Shown here: piece by piece, positions 5,613 through 20,959 of the stretch | How the letters are laid out: each line of letters starts with the position of its first letter | How positions within the stretch are numbered: position 1 is the stretch's first letter | DNA from: a virus | IMG/VR virus record: IMGVR_UViG_3300023278_001631 | Location: 1 to 22,183 of that record | Length of the DNA: 22,183 nucleotides | Strand: one strand, 5' to 3' | The notes under the pieces: model-generated | What the model saw: only the letters and a program-made list of their open reading frames with translations | Database searches by the model: none | Told to the model about the DNA's origin: nothing | Translations under genes and position numbers: made by a program

Positions 5613-5942
5613 ATGGCAAATAAAACTACATACATTAATGCAGAACTTGATTGGGCAGAACAACAACTTAATTCTTGGAAAGAATATGTTGATGCTAATC
5701 CTTTGCACAAGCTTGAAGATAGAGTGAAATACAAAGAAACATCTAATGGAGGATCTATTCCTATGGTTGTTGCAAGTATTGAATCTCAAGGAAAGTTTGT
5801 ACAAGATACAATGAAAAACTACTTGTCTCTTCTAGAACAAGTTGATAAACTTCGTGAAAAAGAAGAAAAGAAAAAGATAGAAACTAGAGGCGGTCAAGAG
5901 TTAGGATCTATGGCTGAAGAGTTTATCAAGAGCAGAAAATAA
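5613..5942 (+). CDS. Candidate small terminase subunit (109 aa)
   Basis: This gene sits directly before the large terminase and shares TAATG with it, the usual place for a small (DNA-recognition) terminase subunit. The sequence is helical: ELDWAEQQLNSWKEYVDAN (about 10-28), a middle SNGGSIPMVVASIESQGKFVQD, then a strongly coiled-coil-like YLSLLEQVDKLREKEEKKK, ending in a charged tail. Coiled-coil oligomerisation fits the ring-forming small terminases, but no clear helix-turn-helix is visible. The call rests on synteny, size and predicted helices only; another packaging accessory is possible. Confidence 0.45.
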   Translation: MANKTTYINAELDWAEQQLNSWKEYVDANPLHKLEDRVKYKETSNGGSIPMVVASIESQGKFVQDTMKNYLSLLEQVDKLREKEEKKKIETRGGQELGSMAEEFIKSRK

Positions 5943-7963
5943 TGGAATTAAAAAGCATAGACTATAAGGATTGGATGATCAATCAGAAGAGAGTTCCTGA
6001 TAAGGATTCTGATGAATACAAACCTTTCTATGACTTCCATAAAGAGGTATGCATGAACGGATGCATGATGAATGGAGTTTACATAAACCCATTCCTATAC
6101 TGGCATTTAAATGCATGGCATACAGAGGTTGACATTATAGATGAATATGGTAGAATTAACCAGAAATATGCCAATCCACTACTTAGAGATAATGAGTGGC
6201 TGGTAACAAGTGAGATAGACAGAGCACATAAAGAAAAGAAAGGACTTGTTATATTAGGAATCAGACGTTTTGCTAAGTCTGTTATAGAAGCAAGTTACAT
6301 AGCACATGGTGCAACATTTGATGAGAACTCACAAAACATCATTGCTGGACTGAATGCTCCCGATATTAAACTTATTACAGATAAGATAGATAAAGGACTT
6401 AACTTCTTACCAAAAGCGTGGAGATGGCAAAGAGTGGAAGATAACTGGAAGAACCAAGTGACACTCGGAATCAAAACTAGAGGTGGAGAACGTATCCCTT
6501 TCTCACAAATCCTGATTCGTAACTTAGATGAGGGTAATAATGAAGAAGCTATTGCAGGTACAAAGCCTCGTAGACTTATTATTGATGAAATTGGTAAAGG
6601 AAGCTTCTTAAGAGGTTTTCAAGCTGCTGTTCCTGGATTTACAACACCATTTGGTTGGGGATGTAGTCCTATTCTTACAGGAACAGGTGGTGACATGAAG
6701 AAATTCATGGATGCAAAGAGTTTGATGTTTGACGTAGACAATTTTAATTTTCTTACGTATAATAACTCAAAAGATGAGAAACGTGTACATGGATTGTTTA
6801 TTTCTCACAAATATAGAATGGAAGCCAAGGAAGAAAGCTCTCTTGGTAAATTTTTAGAACAACCTGCAGATTCTCCACTCAACGATGTACCTATGATGGT
6901 ATCTAATGAGGAGAAGGCTACAGAGATAACCAATAACAACTTAGAGCGTCTAAAGAAAGCAGGTGATAGACTAGCCTACTTAAAAGAGAAGATGTATTAC
7001 CCACAAGAAGTGGATGACATATTCTTAAATGAAGACACAAACATTTTTGACATAGAGGCAGCAAAGCGTCAAAAGTCTAGAATTACAGAAGGAGAAAGAA
7101 CAGGCACGCCTGTTATACTATATGATGATGGTGAAGGTGTAAAGCATGAATTTACAGATAAGTTACCCATAAGTAACTTTCCACTTAAGAATACAGATTT
7201 AAAAGATGCTCCTATAGTTATTTATGAGTTTCCAGTGACAAATCCACCATATGGACTATATGTGGCGGGCATTGACCCTTATAGACAAGGTAAATCAGCT
7301 TACAGTAGTTCATTAGGTTCTGTGTATATATACAAACGTATGCATTCTATATCTGGTGAGAAATACCAAGATATGTTTGTAGCAAGCTACTGTGCACGTC
7401 CTGATAAAAAAGAAACTTGGGAAAATCAAGCTCGCTACCTCATTAAGTATTATAATGCAAGAGCACTATGTGAGAATGATGAGATTTCTTTTATTGATCA
7501 CATGATTAGTAAGGGTGATGCTCAATATCTAGAGAGACAACCTAACTGGTTGAAGGAGATTGTACCAAACACCACTGTAAGACGTGACTATGGTATTCAT
7601 AGATCATCACAAAAGATTAGAGATTTCTTACATGGTTGTCTTAAAAAATATTCAGAAGAAATAATCCATTCCGAAACTAATGAAGAAGGTGAGATTGTTT
7701 CTAAAACAAAAGGAATGGCAAAGATACTTGACCCTCTTTTACTAGAAGAGATGATTCAGTATAACGAAACTGGTAACTTTGACCGAATCATTGCAGCTGA
7801 GTTAGCAATAGCTCTAGCAATGAAGCTTGATCCCATTATTGGAAGAGTGGGAGATAAAGAAGACCCTAGACTAACTTCCTTACACAATAAAAACAAACGA
7901 AACAAACTATTTACAGAGTCTAGAGGACTCTTTAATAGATCAAAAAACAAAATGTTCTTATAA
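5942..7963 (+). CDS. terL: Terminase large subunit (673 aa)
   Basis: The DNA-packaging motor: an N-terminal ATPase that pumps DNA into the prohead and a C-terminal nuclease that cuts the concatemer. ATPase signs: LVILGIRRFAKSV (about 102-114) as Walker A, with Ala in place of the usual second Gly of GKS, and RRLIIDEIGKG (about 210-220) as Walker B with the catalytic Glu. RNase H-like nuclease signs: YVAGIDPYRQG (Asp near 445), ALCENDEISFI (acidic residues near 509-511) and FDRIIAAELAIALAM (Asp near 614). The length fits crAss-like large terminases. Coupled to both neighbours through TAATG overlaps. Confidence 0.9.
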   Translation: MELKSIDYKDWMINQKRVPDKDSDEYKPFYDFHKEVCMNGCMMNGVYINPFLYWHLNAWHTEVDIIDEYGRINQKYANPLLRDNEWLVTSEIDRAHKEKKGLVILGIRRFAKSVIEASYIAHGATFDENSQNIIAGLNAPDIKLITDKIDKGLNFLPKAWRWQRVEDNWKNQVTLGIKTRGGERIPFSQILIRNLDEGNNEEAIAGTKPRRLIIDEIGKGSFLRGFQAAVPGFTTPFGWGCSPILTGTGGDMKKFMDAKSLMFDVDNFNFLTYNNSKDEKRVHGLFISHKYRMEAKEESSLGKFLEQPADSPLNDVPMMVSNEEKATEITNNNLERLKKAGDRLAYLKEKMYYPQEVDDIFLNEDTNIFDIEAAKRQKSRITEGERTGTPVILYDDGEGVKHEFTDKLPISNFPLKNTDLKDAPIVIYEFPVTNPPYGLYVAGIDPYRQGKSAYSSSLGSVYIYKRMHSISGEKYQDMFVASYCARPDKKETWENQARYLIKYYNARALCENDEISFIDHMISKGDAQYLERQPNWLKEIVPNTTVRRDYGIHRSSQKIRDFLHGCLKKYSEEIIHSETNEEGEIVSKTKGMAKILDPLLLEEMIQYNETGNFDRIIAAELAIALAMKLDPIIGRVGDKEDPRLTSLHNKNKRNKLFTESRGLFNRSKNKMFL

Positions 7964-15499: not shown

Positions 15500-16654
15500 A
15501 TGGCGGATTTTTCATTAACCACATTATTTGTGGTTCCAGTAGGTCAGACAACATGGCCTAGCTCTGGTTCAACTCAGGACTTAACTCCTGGAGAAGTAGG
15601 ATTTTTTGGTCCTGATTACACAACACTTGATCCAAACGATGGTGATCTTGACGGAGGAGCGTATTTCTATGTTGCACAAGGTAGACAAAACACTTATCTT
15701 CAAGGATCTAAAAGATCTGGTAAGATAGCTGTTAAAAACAGTAACGCTCCTAGTTACACAGACAATATCACAGAGCTTTACTCTATTAGAGGTTGTGCAA
15801 CAGCACTTAACCAAGTGACAGAAGTAGATGGTTGGAATGTAACTTGTGGTGAGATTGTAACTTTAACATTACGTGCTCACTCTTCTTACATTGACACTCT
15901 TTATTTCAATGGATTCACTCGTTCAGTTACTGTAAACGCACCTTGTTGCGATTGTGGAGCTGATCCATGTGAAACTGTTGATGTACCAGCATTGATTGAT
16001 TCTATGATTGCTAAACTAGAGCAAAGTGCTCCTGGAAACAATCCAGACAACATTAGCTTTAACAGTTTCTACACATTCAGTAGAGTAGGTAATAATGAAA
16101 ATGCAAAACTAGTAATTACAGGTAAACCATTAACTAAATATGGACAACCTTGTGATGTAGCAGCATTTCCATTTGAGTATGACAAAATGCGTTTCAGTAC
16201 TTTTGTATATTCAGGACCTGCAACCACTGCAGACTTTATTGTAGCTGACAATTGTAACATTGTAGCAAATGCTTTAGTAGTTCAAGAGTCTTCTTATCCA
16301 CGAGGAACTTCTGACGAAATTAAGCAACTAGAAAAGAATTTCTATAGCTATCAAGCAGGTTACTTAAAGCACTTGTTCCGTATGAACGGATTCAACCAAA
16401 ACTTTGAATCTTATGTTACAGATGGTGTTATCTATGATACCTACTACATCAAGTTCAACGAGTATGACAGGTCAGCTTACCAGTGGGGAGACTATGTAAT
16501 GCAAGATCAAACAGTAATTATTGCTGTTCCAACAGGAACTACTCTTTCTAACGATATACTAGAAGGATTAATTCAAGATGAGGACGGTGTAGAATATGGT
16601 GGTAGTTGTCCAACAACATCAACTACATCATCAACTACTTCTCAACTTCCTTAA
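15500..16654 (+). CDS. Structural protein with Thr/Ser-rich C-terminal tail (384 aa)
   Basis: Starts MADFSLTTLFVVPVGQTTWP, then GEVGFFGPDYTTLDPNDGD and AYFYVAQGRQNTYLQGSKRS, beta-rich sequence typical of shell, tube or decoration proteins. A Cys-rich insert lies near 154-164 (CCDCGADPCETVD). The C-terminal part carries YQAGYLKHLFRMNGFNQNFE, YDTYYIKFNEYDRSAYQWGD and IIAVPTGTTLSND. The last residues (CPTTSTTSSTTSQLP) are a Thr/Ser tail similar to those on later genes. It could be a major tail or tube protein or a head-decoration protein; I cannot decide. Its gene is followed by a strong terminator, implying an abundant product. A five-codon frame starts at the overlapping TAATG. Confidence 0.62.
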   Translation: MADFSLTTLFVVPVGQTTWPSSGSTQDLTPGEVGFFGPDYTTLDPNDGDLDGGAYFYVAQGRQNTYLQGSKRSGKIAVKNSNAPSYTDNITELYSIRGCATALNQVTEVDGWNVTCGEIVTLTLRAHSSYIDTLYFNGFTRSVTVNAPCCDCGADPCETVDVPALIDSMIAKLEQSAPGNNPDNISFNSFYTFSRVGNNENAKLVITGKPLTKYGQPCDVAAFPFEYDKMRFSTFVYSGPATTADFIVADNCNIVANALVVQESSYPRGTSDEIKQLEKNFYSYQAGYLKHLFRMNGFNQNFESYVTDGVIYDTYYIKFNEYDRSAYQWGDYVMQDQTVIIAVPTGTTLSNDILEGLIQDEDGVEYGGSCPTTSTTSSTTSQLP

Positions 16655-16688
16655 TGGCAGTAAGTAAGTAAAATAATTAATATAACCT

Positions 16689-16736
16689 ATACCAGAGGTG
16701 AGAGGATAAAAACTCATATCCTCTGGTATTTTTTTT
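16689..16736 (+). terminator. Strong intrinsic terminator, possibly bistable
   Basis: ATACCAGAGG (16689-16698) pairs perfectly over 10 bp with CCTCTGGTAT (16720-16729), followed by eight T (16729-16736). An inner AGAGGATA (16701-16708) can pair with TATCCTCT (16717-16724), sharing bases with the outer 3' strand, so two hairpins compete. It separates the capsid/neck transcripts from the tail/adhesion block. Confidence 0.85.
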
Positions 16737-16746
16737 AAACAGCATT

Positions 16747-17304
16747 ATGGCAGTAACGATATTGGACTTTATTGTACCACCAACATATAACGTAAACCTT
16801 CTTGCAGTTACAGATGCGTCTATTTACGTAGGTGGTGTTCCTACATTAGGAACGCTTTATATAACTCCTCCTGGATTTGATGAAGTTGATGTTGCATTTA
16901 CACCAGAAGAGACAAACATCTATGGATCTAATAATTTAGAAATAACTGAGCCAGACTGTAGAGAACCTTTACCAGACGGTATATATCGTATTAAATACCG
17001 AATCAGCTCACCAGTAATTGCTGAGGTGACTAAAAGTGTATTGCGTGTAGATAAACTACAGGAGAAGTTCGACAATGCATTCTTACATCTAGATTTAATG
17101 GAGTGTGATGGTGCTCTCACTACACAAAATAGTGTTAACCTCAACACAATAAACTTTTTCATACAAGGAGCTATTGCTGCAGCAAATAATTGTGCAGAAA
17201 AAGAAGCTCTAAAATTATACGACCAAGCAAATAAAATGCTTGATAGATTTATGAAATGTGGATGTGGTTGTTCAGGAAACAACTATGTTATAAACTTTAA
17301 GTAA
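16747..17304 (+). CDS. Structural protein, beta domain plus Cys-ended helical domain (185 aa)
   Basis: The N-terminal ~95 residues look like a beta-sandwich (VPPTYNVNLLAVTDASIYVG, GTLYITPPGFDEVDVAFTPE, LPDGIYRIKYRISSP). The C-terminal ~90 residues are helical (LDLMECDGALTTQNSVNLN, FFIQGAIAAANNCAEKEALK, LYDQANKMLDRFMKCGCGC), ending with a Cys-rich turn (CGCGCSGNNYVINFK). The first strand-rich domain ahead of a Cys-bearing helical end is a layout I recall from uncharacterised structural proteins of Bacteroidota phages. Immediately downstream is a 34-residue cysteine protein. Probably a neck, tail or adhesin adaptor. Confidence 0.6.
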   Translation: MAVTILDFIVPPTYNVNLLAVTDASIYVGGVPTLGTLYITPPGFDEVDVAFTPEETNIYGSNNLEITEPDCREPLPDGIYRIKYRISSPVIAEVTKSVLRVDKLQEKFDNAFLHLDLMECDGALTTQNSVNLNTINFFIQGAIAAANNCAEKEALKLYDQANKMLDRFMKCGCGCSGNNYVINFK

Positions 17305-17305
17305 C

Positions 17306-17410
17306 ATGGCCCAGTGTGCAAATTGTGGTGCAAAGGTGGGATGTGGATGTCAGCTAAAAGCTGGTCTATGTGCCTATTGTCACGGTAAATTAAACAAAAA
17401 CAAGAAGTAA
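17306..17410 (+). CDS. Tiny cysteine-rich zinc-binding protein (34 aa)
   Basis: One base after the previous stop, ATG 17306 opens MAQCANCGAKVGCGCQLKAG followed by LCAYCHGKLNKNKK. The CxxCGAK...CGCQL...CxxCH arrangement is a compact zinc knuckle that I recall as a common tiny phage protein next to structural genes. It ends one base before the next ATG, so the three genes are tightly packed. Probably virion-assembly related by context; the function is unknown. Confidence 0.72.
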   Translation: MAQCANCGAKVGCGCQLKAGLCAYCHGKLNKNKK

Positions 17411-17411
17411 A

Positions 17412-17822
17412 ATGCTAGGACCTAAAACAACATGTTGTAAAGAGGGTGGGGATATTCAAGATTTACTCAAAAGAATAGACTGTAAGTTAGCAGAGCTAGG
17501 TAATGACCTATACAACAATGTTGTATTTATGTTGAATAGACCGGTGTATGCTAACAAGGTTATACAAATTCTTACATACAAGCGCATCCTAACATCTAAA
17601 TACTACAACATAGAGTATGCAAGTAAGTATACAGTTGAAGATATTGCTAGTAAGGTGATTAGATTAACTGCAGGATGTGTAAGGAGATGTCCTGAGATAC
17701 CACCTGTCTGTGAAACTACTACTACAACAAGTACTACAGAGAATCCTTACAATTGTACATTTGAAGTGGACATTGTTTGTATACCAACAACAACTACCAC
17801 TACTAGTACGATACCAGTATAA
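17412..17822 (+). CDS. Structural-module protein with two poly-Thr tracts (136 aa)
   Basis: The first ~95 residues form a compact, probably helical domain with Cys near the N-terminus (TTCCKEGGDIQDLLKRIDCK) and NNVVFMLNRPVYANKVIQIL, YKRILTSKYYNIEYASKYTV. After CVRRCPEIPPVCE comes TTTTTSTTE, a short spacer (NPYNCTFEVDIVCIP) and a terminal TTTTTTSTIPV. The Cys-flanked spacer between the tracts may be disulphide-bonded. The terminal 'TIPV' recurs exactly on the 46-residue protein at 18932-19072. No family recognised; adaptor or surface protein by context. Confidence 0.65.
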   Translation: MLGPKTTCCKEGGDIQDLLKRIDCKLAELGNDLYNNVVFMLNRPVYANKVIQILTYKRILTSKYYNIEYASKYTVEDIASKVIRLTAGCVRRCPEIPPVCETTTTTSTTENPYNCTFEVDIVCIPTTTTTTSTIPV

Positions 17823-17856
17823 AATAAAAAATAATCTCTACTAAAACATATATATA

Positions 17857-18930
17857 ATGTCAAACACTTGCACAAATTGTTACAACGGATGTGCTGAAAT
17901 TACTTCAGACAAGTGCGTAAAATATACAGGAGTAGATATTCCTGAATTAGGAATACAGAGTGGTGACACTCTACTTCATGTAGAGCAAAAGATCATGGAG
18001 TTTTTAACTAGTACATTAAATGGAACAGGGATCTTTCCAGAAATTCCATCTAATGTTATTTGTGATCTAGTTCAGGCAAATCTACCACTAACTGGTCCAC
18101 TAACATTAAATGACTATTTAACTGGAGTTATAGAAACTTTATGTGATTTAGAAAATAGAATACTTGGACTTGAAAATCAAAACCCAAACAGATTATATGA
18201 TGTAGACTGTTTAACTCCTACATCAAACACAGATACTCACGAAGTTCTTCAAAGTGTAATATACAAAGTGTGTACACTTGCTCAGCAGTTAACTGACTTT
18301 GTAACATATGTAGATGCTACGTACGTAAAGATATCAGATATTAATACGTACATCCAAAACTATCTAGATACACAACCAACTGAAAACCTTATAAGCAACC
18401 GTATGGTTCCTAATGCTGTTGTTGCATATACAGGATCTTTAACAAACTTTGATATTACTGGAGCTGGTTTAGGAAATTGGGACAGAATATTCTTGTGTAA
18501 TGGTCAAAATGGAACTCCAGACTTAAGAGGTAGAGTGCTTGTTGGAGCAAATTCAGGAATGGGTGGAGGACCACTTGATGCTGCAGTGAATCCAGCAATA
18601 CTTGGAAATCCTACATATGCACTCGGATCTACACATGGAACAAATAGTGTTGTTCTTACTCAAGGTCAGCTTCCTTCTCATACGCACACATCAACTGTTT
18701 CAACAGAGCCAGACCACACGCATGATTTTTCAAATAATCTAATTGGACGTGGTACAGGAGGAGGTGATGCTCTCACTAATCAAGACAACATTTCAAGTAA
18801 TGACTACACTGAGACTGATCCAGCTGGAGAACACACTCACACTGTAACAATTGGTAACACTGGTGGTGGATTAGGACACCAGAACTACCAACCAGGTCGA
18901 GGTATTTATTACATAGTTTATAAACCTTAA
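17857..18930 (+). CDS. Tail collar-type fibre / receptor-binding protein (357 aa)
   Basis: A Cys-rich start (MSNTCTNCYNGCAEI, residues 1-15) precedes a helical middle likely to trimerise (HEVLQSVIYKVCTLAQQLTD). The C-terminal ~170 residues carry a phage tail-collar domain: NWDRIFLCNGQNGTPDLRGR (about 207-226), LTQGQLPSHTHT (about 267-278), then DHTHDF and EHTHTV, and GHQNYQPGRGIYYIVYKP at the end. In T4 gp12 and relatives, HxH motifs from three chains bind a metal ion along the fibre axis; here there are three HTH pairs. Likely a tail-tip or adhesin protein. The N-terminus may attach to other Cys-rich neighbours. Confidence 0.8.
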   Translation: MSNTCTNCYNGCAEITSDKCVKYTGVDIPELGIQSGDTLLHVEQKIMEFLTSTLNGTGIFPEIPSNVICDLVQANLPLTGPLTLNDYLTGVIETLCDLENRILGLENQNPNRLYDVDCLTPTSNTDTHEVLQSVIYKVCTLAQQLTDFVTYVDATYVKISDINTYIQNYLDTQPTENLISNRMVPNAVVAYTGSLTNFDITGAGLGNWDRIFLCNGQNGTPDLRGRVLVGANSGMGGGPLDAAVNPAILGNPTYALGSTHGTNSVVLTQGQLPSHTHTSTVSTEPDHTHDFSNNLIGRGTGGGDALTNQDNISSNDYTETDPAGEHTHTVTIGNTGGGLGHQNYQPGRGIYYIVYKP

Positions 18931-18931
18931 T

Positions 18932-19072
18932 ATGGAAAACGCATTTTTACCCGTAAACCCTGATTGTGACAATGTAGTGCTAAACTGGCCCTGTGGCTGT
19001 AGAACTACATATGTTAGAGGTGTTTCTAGTGGGAATATTTGCACAGATATAACAACAACAATCCCAGTATAA
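18932..19072 (+). CDS. Small Cys-containing protein with TTTIPV tail (46 aa)
   Basis: ATG 18932 follows the fibre stop by one base and ends just before the holin-like gene. The product MENAFLPVNPDCDNVVLNWP continues CGCRTTYVRGVSSGNICTD and ends ITTTIPV. The four cysteines resemble a small zinc- or disulphide-stabilised module. The tail repeats the TIPV ending of the gene at 17412. Because the frame fits the gap exactly and shares this tail, I consider it real. Function unknown; a surface or adaptor peptide is likely. Confidence 0.68.
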   Translation: MENAFLPVNPDCDNVVLNWPCGCRTTYVRGVSSGNICTDITTTIPV

Positions 19073-19073
19073 C

Positions 19074-19307
19074 ATGGCATTTTTAGATATATTTAAAGAC
19101 GAAAATGATGTTAACGAGAAAAACGTTATAGGATTTATATCATTTACAGTAATGGTTACGTTTGCTATTGTAGACCTAGTCACTGGATATTTTGGTAAAG
19201 ATCTCATCATCCAAGAGTTTATATATAACTCATTTGTAATAGTAACATTAGGATCTTTTGGCATTGCAAGCTTAGAAAAAGGACTAGGAAGAAAAGAAAC
19301 AAAATAA
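19074..19307 (+). CDS. Holin-like small membrane protein (77 aa)
   Basis: After the acidic FLDIFKDENDVNEKN start come two hydrophobic helices: VIGFISFTVMVTFAIVDLVT (about 18-37) and FIYNSFVIVTLGSFGIASLE (about 49-68), then a basic tail GLGRKETK. Two spans, a short loop and a charged C-terminus fit class II holins, which open the inner membrane for lysis. Holin function is not proven; no endolysin is seen in the window. The start is one base after the previous stop. Confidence 0.5.
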   Translation: MAFLDIFKDENDVNEKNVIGFISFTVMVTFAIVDLVTGYFGKDLIIQEFIYNSFVIVTLGSFGIASLEKGLGRKETK

Positions 19308-19326
19308 TAAATAGCTACTTAAAAAG

Positions 19327-19515
19327 ATGTATTATAAAATAGAAATAACACTCGTATCTCTTATGTTATTATTGGGAAATGAAATACTAGGAACATTAGT
19401 AGCATTAACTACATTAATATACTATGGATCCATGCTAAAGATTAATGTTATAGATACACGTTATGATGGTAGCTGGATTAAATACTTTAAGTCGTTCCTC
19501 ACTCGTAAATCATGA
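19327..19515 (+). CDS. Small membrane protein (62 aa)
   Basis: One to two hydrophobic spans are seen (EITLVSLMLLLGNEILGTLV, then ALTTLIYYGSML), followed by a soluble basic C-terminus (YDGSWIKYFKSFLTRKS). The stop overlaps the next start as ATGA. It could be a second lysis protein (for example a regulator of the holin) or an anchoring protein for the adhesion block. Adjacent placement of two membrane proteins suggests a lysis cassette, unproven. Confidence 0.5.
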   Translation: MYYKIEITLVSLMLLLGNEILGTLVALTTLIYYGSMLKINVIDTRYDGSWIKYFKSFLTRKS

Positions 19516-19766
19516 CAGTAGAAATAACACTAACTACAGCTGGAGCTGATGCTACATTGTTTGATTTGTATTCAGATATTGATGGATTCACCACACCATT
19601 TGAAACAGATGTACCTGTAGCGTCTCTATTAGCAGGATATAGCTCAGCATTGGTTCCTGACTTTACAACTATTGTAAGGGTACAGGCTAAAGGAGACTGT
19701 GTTAACTATATAGATATTGAGTGTACAGAACCAACAACCACCACTACAACAACCATAATATTATAA
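19512..19766 (+). CDS. Adhesin-like domain with C-terminal poly-Thr tail, copy 1 (84 aa)
   Basis: One small beta-rich domain (about residues 1-70) followed by seven Thr and IIL. Motifs: FDLYSDIDGFTTPF, LLAGYSSALVPDFTTIVRV, GDCVNYIDIE. The next gene has exactly the same length and aligns without gaps; by hand count 36 of the first 74 residues are identical, so this is a tandem duplicate. The third related domain starts the gene at 20027. Translation is coupled to the membrane-protein gene by ATGA. No signal peptide. Likely a virion surface or fibre-associated protein; the fold and ligand are unknown. Confidence 0.72.
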   Translation: MTVEITLTTAGADATLFDLYSDIDGFTTPFETDVPVASLLAGYSSALVPDFTTIVRVQAKGDCVNYIDIECTEPTTTTTTTIIL

Positions 19767-19770
19767 TAGC

Positions 19771-20025
19771 ATGACGGGAGTAATAGAGGTAACAACAATT
19801 GGAACAGACGCTGATAACTTTTATTTATTCTCAGATGTCAATGGTTTTACATCAGCATTTGCTGTAGGTGTAAGTGCTGCTGAATTAGCGGCTGGCTATG
19901 CAACAGATCAAATACCTAACGGAACAACAATTGTTAGGGTGTTATCAGATGGCCCATGTAACAGTTATATCGACATAGCAATTACTACCAAAACAACCAC
20001 AACCACAACAACAATAGTAGTGTAA
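19771..20025 (+). CDS. Adhesin-like domain with C-terminal poly-Thr tail, copy 2 (84 aa)
   Basis: A paralog of the previous gene with the same 84-residue length: FYLFSDVNGFTSAF, LAAGYATDQIPNGTTIVRVL, GPCNSYIDIA, then seven Thr and IVV. The conserved points are F-x-L-[YF]-S-D, GF, L-x-x-GY, P-x-x-TT-x-V-R-V, G-x-C-x-x-Y-[IV]-D. Divergence outside these suggests that the copies are not a recent duplication or have diversified under selection. Four bases separate it from copy 1 and one base from copy 3. The function is probably the same as copy 1: surface exposure or adhesion, inferred from context. Confidence 0.72.
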   Translation: MTGVIEVTTIGTDADNFYLFSDVNGFTSAFAVGVSAAELAAGYATDQIPNGTTIVRVLSDGPCNSYIDIAITTKTTTTTTTIVV

Positions 20026-20026
20026 T

Positions 20027-20959
20027 ATGATAAGCATAGAAATAACAATAACAGAAACCACAGCTGGACCATTTAATCTGTATTCAAATGCAGACTCATT
20101 CTTAGTTCCTTTTGAGACAAGTGTTCCTGCTTCAAGTCTTATTTCTGGATACACTACATCTGCTCCAGATGGGACAACTTATGTAAGAGTGTTGTCTACA
20201 GGAGATTGTAAAAACTATGTAGATGCAGTTCTTCCATGTAGCATCACCACTACAACAACAACTACTGCTGTTGAAACTGTTGCTATTAACTGGGAACTAA
20301 TTACAGGAGAACCTGATAACATCGGATTTGTAAATCTTAAAATATTTATAAATGGAATTGAGCAAGTTAATGCAACTATTTCTGATGGAAACCTTGTTGA
20401 GTCTGGTGTAATAAATGTAGTGCCAGGAGCACTCATGACTGCAACAATGGTTAATAGCAATCTTGGTATATGGAACTTTGGAAACAAGATATTAAAAGAC
20501 TTAGTTCTATATCAACCACAAGATAACTGTTTTAGTTGCCCAAACAGCTTAGAGACATCAATGGATTCAGCATTATTTATAATTGCTAACACTGACTTTA
20601 TATTCCAAGGAGATGTCAATGATCCAACAGCCCCACCAACAACCACAACAACATCAACCTTACCTCCTACAACCACAACAACTACTACTGCTGGAGCTAT
20701 TGCTTGGCCAATCACTGCGGAGTATCTTGATAATCCAGCGGTAGCTTGTTCAGATACTACATACATATCAGTAGTTTATGTTGAGAATGACATATGGCAA
20801 CTAGGAGATGTAGTGTATACAGATGCTGCTAAAACTATACCTTATGTACCCACCCCTGGTGGAGACCGATTCTTTCACGTAGATACTGGTGGAGTTGGTA
20901 TTGCTATAAGTGTAAGAGAGGATGGCACTGGTATTATCAAGGGTGCAGTAAGTTGCTAA
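20027..20959 (+). CDS. Three-domain adhesin-like protein with poly-Thr linkers (310 aa)
   Basis: Domain 1 (about 1-72) is the third paralog of the preceding two proteins (FNLYSNADSFLVPF, LISGYTTSAPDGTTYVRVL, GDCKNYVDA). Where the earlier copies end, the Thr run (ITTTTTTTAVE) is read through. Domain 2 (about 84-200) is a beta-rich module (VAINWELITGEPDNIGFVNL, LKDLVLYQPQDNCFSC). A second Thr/Pro linker (PTTTTTSTLPPTTTTTTT, about 205-222) leads to domain 3 (about 225-310: LGDVVYTDAAKTIPYVP, RFFHVDTGGVGI, DGTGIIKGAVSC), a small module whose start recalls repeat domains of Bacteroidota phage and surface proteins. It is the last gene before tandem terminators. Probably a modular surface adhesin or fibre. 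Confidence 0.68.
   Translation: MISIEITITETTAGPFNLYSNADSFLVPFETSVPASSLISGYTTSAPDGTTYVRVLSTGDCKNYVDAVLPCSITTTTTTTAVETVAINWELITGEPDNIGFVNLKIFINGIEQVNATISDGNLVESGVINVVPGALMTATMVNSNLGIWNFGNKILKDLVLYQPQDNCFSCPNSLETSMDSALFIIANTDFIFQGDVNDPTAPPTTTTTSTLPPTTTTTTTAGAIAWPITAEYLDNPAVACSDTTYISVVYVENDIWQLGDVVYTDAAKTIPYVPTPGGDRFFHVDTGGVGIAISVREDGTGIIKGAVSC

Follow-up and report, generated by a model that had tools for sequence, protein, structure and literature searches.

A parallel for the system considered here has been described in mycobacteriophages. There, capsid and tail-tube proteins bear glycans at their C-termini (PMC12619734), and virion glycosylation of phages such as Che8 (Freeman et al. 2023, as cited in PMC12619734 and PMC11256854) relies on glycosyltransferases that the phage encodes. 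We analyzed a 22,183-bp viral fragment, IMG/VR record IMGVR_UViG_3300023278_001631 (the window), in which tracts of threonine, commonly blocks of seven (T blocks, or T7), end or join several proteins. Ser/Thr-rich C-terminal ends on capsid or tail proteins, as in mycobacteriophage-type O-glycosylation, are present here, and candidate glycosyltransferases encoded by related phages may extend the resemblance to the Che8 system. Unlike that system, the tag here is a seven-Thr block which also serves as a linker in many proteins, the linked gene is phrog_4417, and the system is known from sequence. A second comparison is with the PT-rich linkers of bacterial and fungal secreted enzymes, which are Thr/Pro-rich spacers between independent domains. 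T blocks resemble them as inter-domain spacers but are of fixed length, a property for which PT-rich linkers are not known.

On balance we favor the view that T blocks are linkers and tails on external virion proteins, modified by an enzyme that the phage itself encodes, a member of the phrog_4417 family, most likely by O-glycosylation; we infer both the chemistry and the activity of the enzyme. T blocks would act as protein-level tags on external virion proteins of crAss-like phages, either as C-terminal tails or as inter-domain linkers, with each block held near seven Thr, often followed by hydrophobic-x-Pro, and recurring with a period of 10–11 residues. They would hold or end displayed domains. 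The phrog_4417-family enzyme, encoded beside the tagged genes, would act on Thr/Ser side chains inside the cytoplasm, either ahead of assembly or in its course, most likely by O-glycosylation that is perhaps elaborated by other phage glycosyltransferases, and the product would be stiff, protease-resistant, sugar-coated stalks and tails.

Relatives were identified through the window capsid protein, which has counterparts in at least 598 IMG/VR stretches; the best 80, at 91–95% identity, were retrieved, and genes in relatives were called by a simple longest open reading frame (ORF) method. Pure-Thr runs of 5, 6, 7, 8 and 9 residues number 2, 6, 145, 41 and 6, respectively, with one run of at least 10. 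Thr/Ser runs of 11–14 residues are nearly absent, and the next mode lies at 18. Long tracts start with about five Thr and end with about seven, with Ser before the latter. T blocks repeat every 10–11 residues, mostly across three-residue spacers (VWP, VAP, ATP and similar), and their flanks are Pro- and Cys-rich. An earlier note on this DNA had described four of the five tracts that close proteins from gene 17412 on as ending in T(n)-I-x-V/L; this is the local form, whereas the commonest ending clade-wide is T7-hydrophobic-x-P, with LIP in 27 of 117 C-terminal tracts.

This architecture bears on two alternatives. T blocks could be linkers and tails that stay unmodified, serving as extended hydrophilic spacers in the manner of PT-rich linkers, with the adjacent phrog_4417 gene doing some other job. 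Such a role agrees with their behavior as linkers of 11–79 residues between domains and with the low confidence of the tail end in the model of the predicted auxiliary capsid protein (gene 15500; genes are named here by their first coordinate), but not with a length held at seven, a 10–11-residue repeat, a conserved VWP/LIP tail on the capsid protein with nothing after it, or the linkage to phrog_4417 in unrelated phages, and we regard it as unlikely. More doubtful still is that T7 is a docking or assembly tag for one partner, for example a beta strand added to the capsid, to the anchor domain described below, or to phrog_4417 as an assembly factor. The fixed length, the conserved hydrophobic-x-Pro end and the invariant VW-P center of the capsid-protein tail would suit docking; the same block, however, doubles as an inter-domain linker, and phrog_4417, with its enzyme-like DxD motif, is not known to form part of virions.

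The earlier note had also offered DNA-level ACA/ACC/ACT repeats as a basis for the tracts, an option that fails on codon usage. Across 33 different DNA sequences that encode the capsid-protein tail, Thr is invariant in most of its columns while codons vary, and the Ser at position 4 is maintained through both TCN and AGY codons. Identical neighboring codons in tracts are rarer than in shuffles (z −2.4, −3.5). Because Thr/Ser is kept while codons change, and identical neighbors are rarer than shuffled, selection on the tracts acts mainly at the level of protein rather than of DNA repeat. Slippage of the DNA as the origin of the tracts was ruled out by the same codon statistics. We therefore give very little credence to the idea that ACN repeats are slippage or recombination hot spots that shuffle domains and yield poly-Thr as a by-product, even though domains are shuffled across tracts and the wobble bases show some position bias; synonymous codons are mixed within the tracts.

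The gene linked to the tracts, phrog_4417, belongs to a PHROG of about 338 aa that is listed as of unknown function; the sources consulted on the family hold no link to Thr tails, and here it is a neighbor of T-block genes. Examples are L239:1477–2490 (minus strand) and orf45 of bIL285, a prophage of Lactococcus lactis IL1403. Of 14 clade records with 90 kb or more, 13 carry it, versus 0 of 17 tract-less outgroup records. In 16 of 19 related records its immediate neighbor encodes a short N-terminal module with T blocks after it, and in nine records it lies 38–652 bp from a T7 tract, a proximity reached in 0 of 20,000 random placements. Homologues occur in 74 cultured-phage records, mainly of Lactobacillus, Enterococcus, Staphylococcus and Lactococcus, and 11 of the 12 cultured phages inspected carry runs of five ACN codons within 690 bp of phrog_4417, mostly within 40 bp. 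These tracts lie on capsid, tail or neighboring proteins. In iLp84 the major head protein ends ...VPTTTTTTTSK and the major tail protein ...GETTTTTTTSK; Thr tails also close the capsid protein of 4995_1 (...GTTTTTTKPTTTTTTTQA) and the major tail protein of phiFL1A (...SSTTTTTTTQASSK), and the Lactococcus phages bIL285 and 1706 have a tract at the major tail protein (bIL285, ...SKTTTTTTTTTRHD); in 1706 the genes of interest are orf13/orf14. The homologous major tail proteins of Javan47, phiJL-1 and Bassarid, phages without phrog_4417, have no Thr tail. The linkage between T blocks and phrog_4417 thus holds in two unrelated phage groups.

In some cultured Gram-positive phages the Thr tract by phrog_4417 lies just beyond the stop codon of the capsid or tail gene, in frame in bIL285 and in a shifted frame in nattely, 9183 and TPWB06. 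Post-stop tracts were located as follows.
L266, about 2944–2985: post-stop Thr tract
L268, about 2740–2900: post-stop Thr tract
L257, about 2300–2420: post-stop Thr tract
L269, 2720–2926: post-stop Thr tract
Their position past the stop, in frame or shifted, suggests that, in these phages, some of the capsid or tail subunits may acquire a Thr tail through recoding.

By its motifs, phrog_4417 looks like a sugar-attaching enzyme. Both Asp residues of a D-[SC]-D motif are invariant in 23 of 23 sequences, along with further W, Q, H and K residues, and glycosyltransferases of the GT-A type carry a DxD motif. Of 12 clade records reaching 90 kb, 11 have a GT2-family gene that scores above cutoff, versus 1 of 17 outgroup records, counts that are not phylogenetically independent; no GT2 gene was found in the window fragment. 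Distance from GT2 genes to tracts was considered as evidence and discarded (P 0.03 with the map treated as circular, 0.61 with it treated as linear). One clade genome (the record of L079; L186–L191) encodes GT11, GT2, an enzyme of epimerase or GDP-mannose dehydratase type, sulfotransferases, an APS kinase and a sugar kinase, a set that would fit a sulfated or fucosylated phage-made glycan.

Several observations weigh against modification by a phrog_4417 enzyme. Two records (L248, L249) carry phrog_4417 without an adjacent tract; the gene is absent from the window proteins as scanned and from the partial records of the closest relatives, and this virus is presumed to have it. The protein matches no known enzyme, with no sequence match in Pfam, NCBIfam or PDB; a possible resemblance to plant peptidyl glycosyltransferases is given no weight here. 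The rule on tract length is looser in Gram-positive phages, and the wobble bases of T7 depart from randomness at certain positions, mainly codons 1 and 7.

A broader and more tentative proposal is that T7 and phrog_4417 form a mobile two-part system across unrelated phages of Bacteroidota and Gram-positive hosts, pairing a quantized tag for almost any external virion protein with a dedicated new family of modifying enzymes, a modification or purpose not described before. If the favored reading of modified T blocks is right, T7 (often with hydrophobic-x-Pro) together with phrog_4417 as a marker would predict chemically modified virion proteins, both in crAss-like environmental phages and in phages of Lactococcus, Lactobacillus and Enterococcus that have been cultured. 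Modification of the virion matters for how antibodies recognize a phage, how it adsorbs and how stable it is, and it is known from only a few phages. The tag peptide and the candidate enzyme could then be tried for decorating proteins made in bacteria.

The window represents part of the genome of a crAss-like phage; its terminase, portal and major capsid genes are of crAss type. Its terminase (window positions 5942–7963) places it nearest, among isolates, to Leptolyngbya phage Lbo-JY46 (40%), with Cellulophaga phages phi4:1 and phi17:2 at 31%, and Lbo-JY46, the closest cultured relative by this gene, infects a cyanobacterium rather than Bacteroidota. The host is probably a member of the Bacteroidota, judging from distant crAss-like kinship and from AT-rich starts without Shine-Dalgarno sites. 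Such a host would allow its general O-glycosylation system to modify the tracts, and the earlier note had raised O-glycosylation in this form. The known Bacteroidota sequon, D-(S/T)-hydrophobic, starts with D, yet D precedes only 5 of 598 tracts. Phage virions assemble in the cytoplasm, the same tag occurs in Gram-positive phages, and the nearest isolate infects a cyanobacterium, all of which make modification by the host system highly improbable. O-glycosylation itself is strengthened as an option by the phage-encoded linked gene.

The window tracts considered here, between positions 15500 and 20959, lie in the following features.
15500–16654, + strand: 384-aa product with a gp36-like fold, predicted to be the auxiliary capsid protein and closed by a Thr/Ser tail, from fold, synteny and the tail in homologues
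16613–16642, + strand: Thr/Ser tail TTSTTSSTTS, residues 372–381 of the 15500 product, then QLP and stop
17412–17822, + strand: 136-aa protein whose C-terminal extension has two tracts (residues 102–109 and 126–133)
17715–17738, + strand: tract TTTTTSTT in gene 17412
17787–17810, + strand: tract TTTTTTST in gene 17412, then IPV and stop
19052–19060, + strand: TTT before the IPV and stop of a 46-aa ORF (18932–19072), below block length
19512–19766, + strand: 84-aa protein, anchor domain (residues 1–70) and T7-IIL tail
19734–19754, + strand: T7 block, C-terminal tail of the 19512 product, residues 75–81
19771–20025, + strand: 84-aa protein, anchor domain and T7-IVV tail
19993–20013, + strand: T7 block, C-terminal tail of the 19771 product, residues 75–81
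20027–20959, + strand: 310-aa protein, with anchor domain, T7 linker, beta domain 2, T5ST-LPP-T7 linker and domain 3
20246–20266, + strand: T7 block, linker 1 of the 20027 product, residues 74–80
20639–20659, + strand: TTTTTST block, linker 2 of the 20027 product, residues 205–211
20669–20689, + strand: T7 block, linker 2 of the 20027 product, residues 215–221

Tracts of at least six Thr/Ser are present in 5 of the 10 genes across this region. The tracts reported earlier in genes 15500, 17412, 19512, 19771 and 20027 were all seen, but they do not run through at least six consecutive proteins as had been claimed: genes 16747, 17857, 19074 and 19327 have no Thr tract, and 18932 has only TTT. The statement that the carriers differ in their domains stands in part, since 19512, 19771 and 20027 are tandem paralogues with a common N-terminal domain of about 70 aa. 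Frameshift fusion at the window tracts was rejected, as downstream frames overlap the preceding gene, if at all, by only 5–20 nt and would give no long fused product.

In phicrAss001, gp36 is an auxiliary capsid protein in the outer capsid layer, with nine copies per asymmetric unit (PMC10172136). The 15500 protein was modeled from 40 relatives, with a predicted local distance difference test (pLDDT) value of 75 and a tail end of low confidence. Its best fold match in PDB is 7qof chain a of the phicrAss001 capsid (Foldseek E 4.8e-9; template modeling (TM) scores 0.45/0.51), a chain of 333 residues, the same length as gp36, and the model contains the two-domain fold of gp36, PH plus FliD-like. 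The window gene order of capsid, gp33-like, ring, auxiliary capsid protein and then a homologue of phi17:2 gp58 agrees with crAss001 synteny, although the gp33 and ring correspondences are weak at the sequence level. Sequence comparison detected no homology between the 15500 protein and gp36, so the assignment rests on fold and gene order, by which the 15500 product is predicted to be the auxiliary capsid protein. It differs from gp36, which has no Thr tail, in its Thr/Ser tail, kept in 70 of 75 complete homologues and most commonly of the form C-[VI]-TTTSTTTTVWPSTSTTTTLIP. The 17412 product sits where crAss001 gp39 (tail hub B) would be, a placement by position only, and a sequence comparison with gp39 gave no match; most of its homologues stop at 87–91 aa, without the tract.

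The anchor domain shared by 19512, 19771 and 20027 had no match in Pfam, PHROGs or 50,697 phage records, apart from phrog_21885, which fits three longer members only. It was found in no cultured phage and, among genomes, in one short metagenome-assembled genome (MAG) contig; in BFVD it occurs in uncharacterized proteins of Virus NIOZ-UU157. Among 150 unique anchor-domain proteins, 76 continue past a tract into a C-terminal domain, of which there are 34 unrelated kinds, whereas 27 end in a tract and 29 consist of the anchor domain alone; their inter-domain Thr linkers span 11 to 79 residues. Members of this family may be held in the virion by the shared domain and display parts that can be exchanged. 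Beta domain 2 of the 310-aa protein is kept in 15 loci, and the whole protein gave weak Foldseek matches in PDB to Gram-positive pilins, at a TM of about 0.2 that is too weak for interpretation. Among tract-joined domains we noted by eye a von Willebrand A-like domain (L024:11813–14791), a beta-propeller-like repeat (L073:15358–17010) and a lectin-like domain (L115:1666–2580).

The suggestion that the tail is a portable tag is supported: within the clade, five or more unrelated protein modules have the block after them, and it also occurs on capsid and tail proteins of unrelated phages. From fold and synteny, the carriers look external, comprising the auxiliary capsid protein and modular decoration or fiber proteins. 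A second T-block family consists of a module of about 48 aa (KAYVRFDGSGR...ECC) followed by T7 blocks, directly adjoining phrog_4417, with these members.
L186, 3380–3856: second-family member
L192, 10050–10475: second-family member
L201, 9367–10509: second-family member
L238–L254: further members
A third module, MAIPSRQIGW...LLWQISKQLE, likewise bears T blocks.

The tracts are confined within genome and clade. In relatives, tract genes make up 187 of 825 genes downstream of the major capsid gene versus 0 of 627 upstream and 0 of 142 minus-strand ORFs, so that the equal frequency in unrelated genes which the earlier note had named as refuting its proposal is not seen. Relatives lacking the tails, a second outcome named there as refuting, were found only at a distance (Lbo-JY46, phi17:2 and crAss001). 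Across whole records, runs of seven ACN codons occur in 12 of 12 clade records, on one strand only, while no run of six was found in nine cultured or gut crAss-type genomes or in eight records of the Lbo-JY46 sister clade. Searches of the literature for phage tracts of poly-threonine or rich in threonine brought up no account of them. When all viral contigs were scanned for the series T7, two middle-T codons, Pro and TAA, 21 stretches came up, 20 of which belong to this clade or bear the anchor domain; the last (L222) lies in a record with phrog_4417. One relative (L025:8246–14292) has, in place of several separate genes of the window, one ORF of 2,015 aa or more that reaches the end of the retrieved locus and contains many T blocks, and linker and tail T blocks may therefore interconvert through gene splitting.

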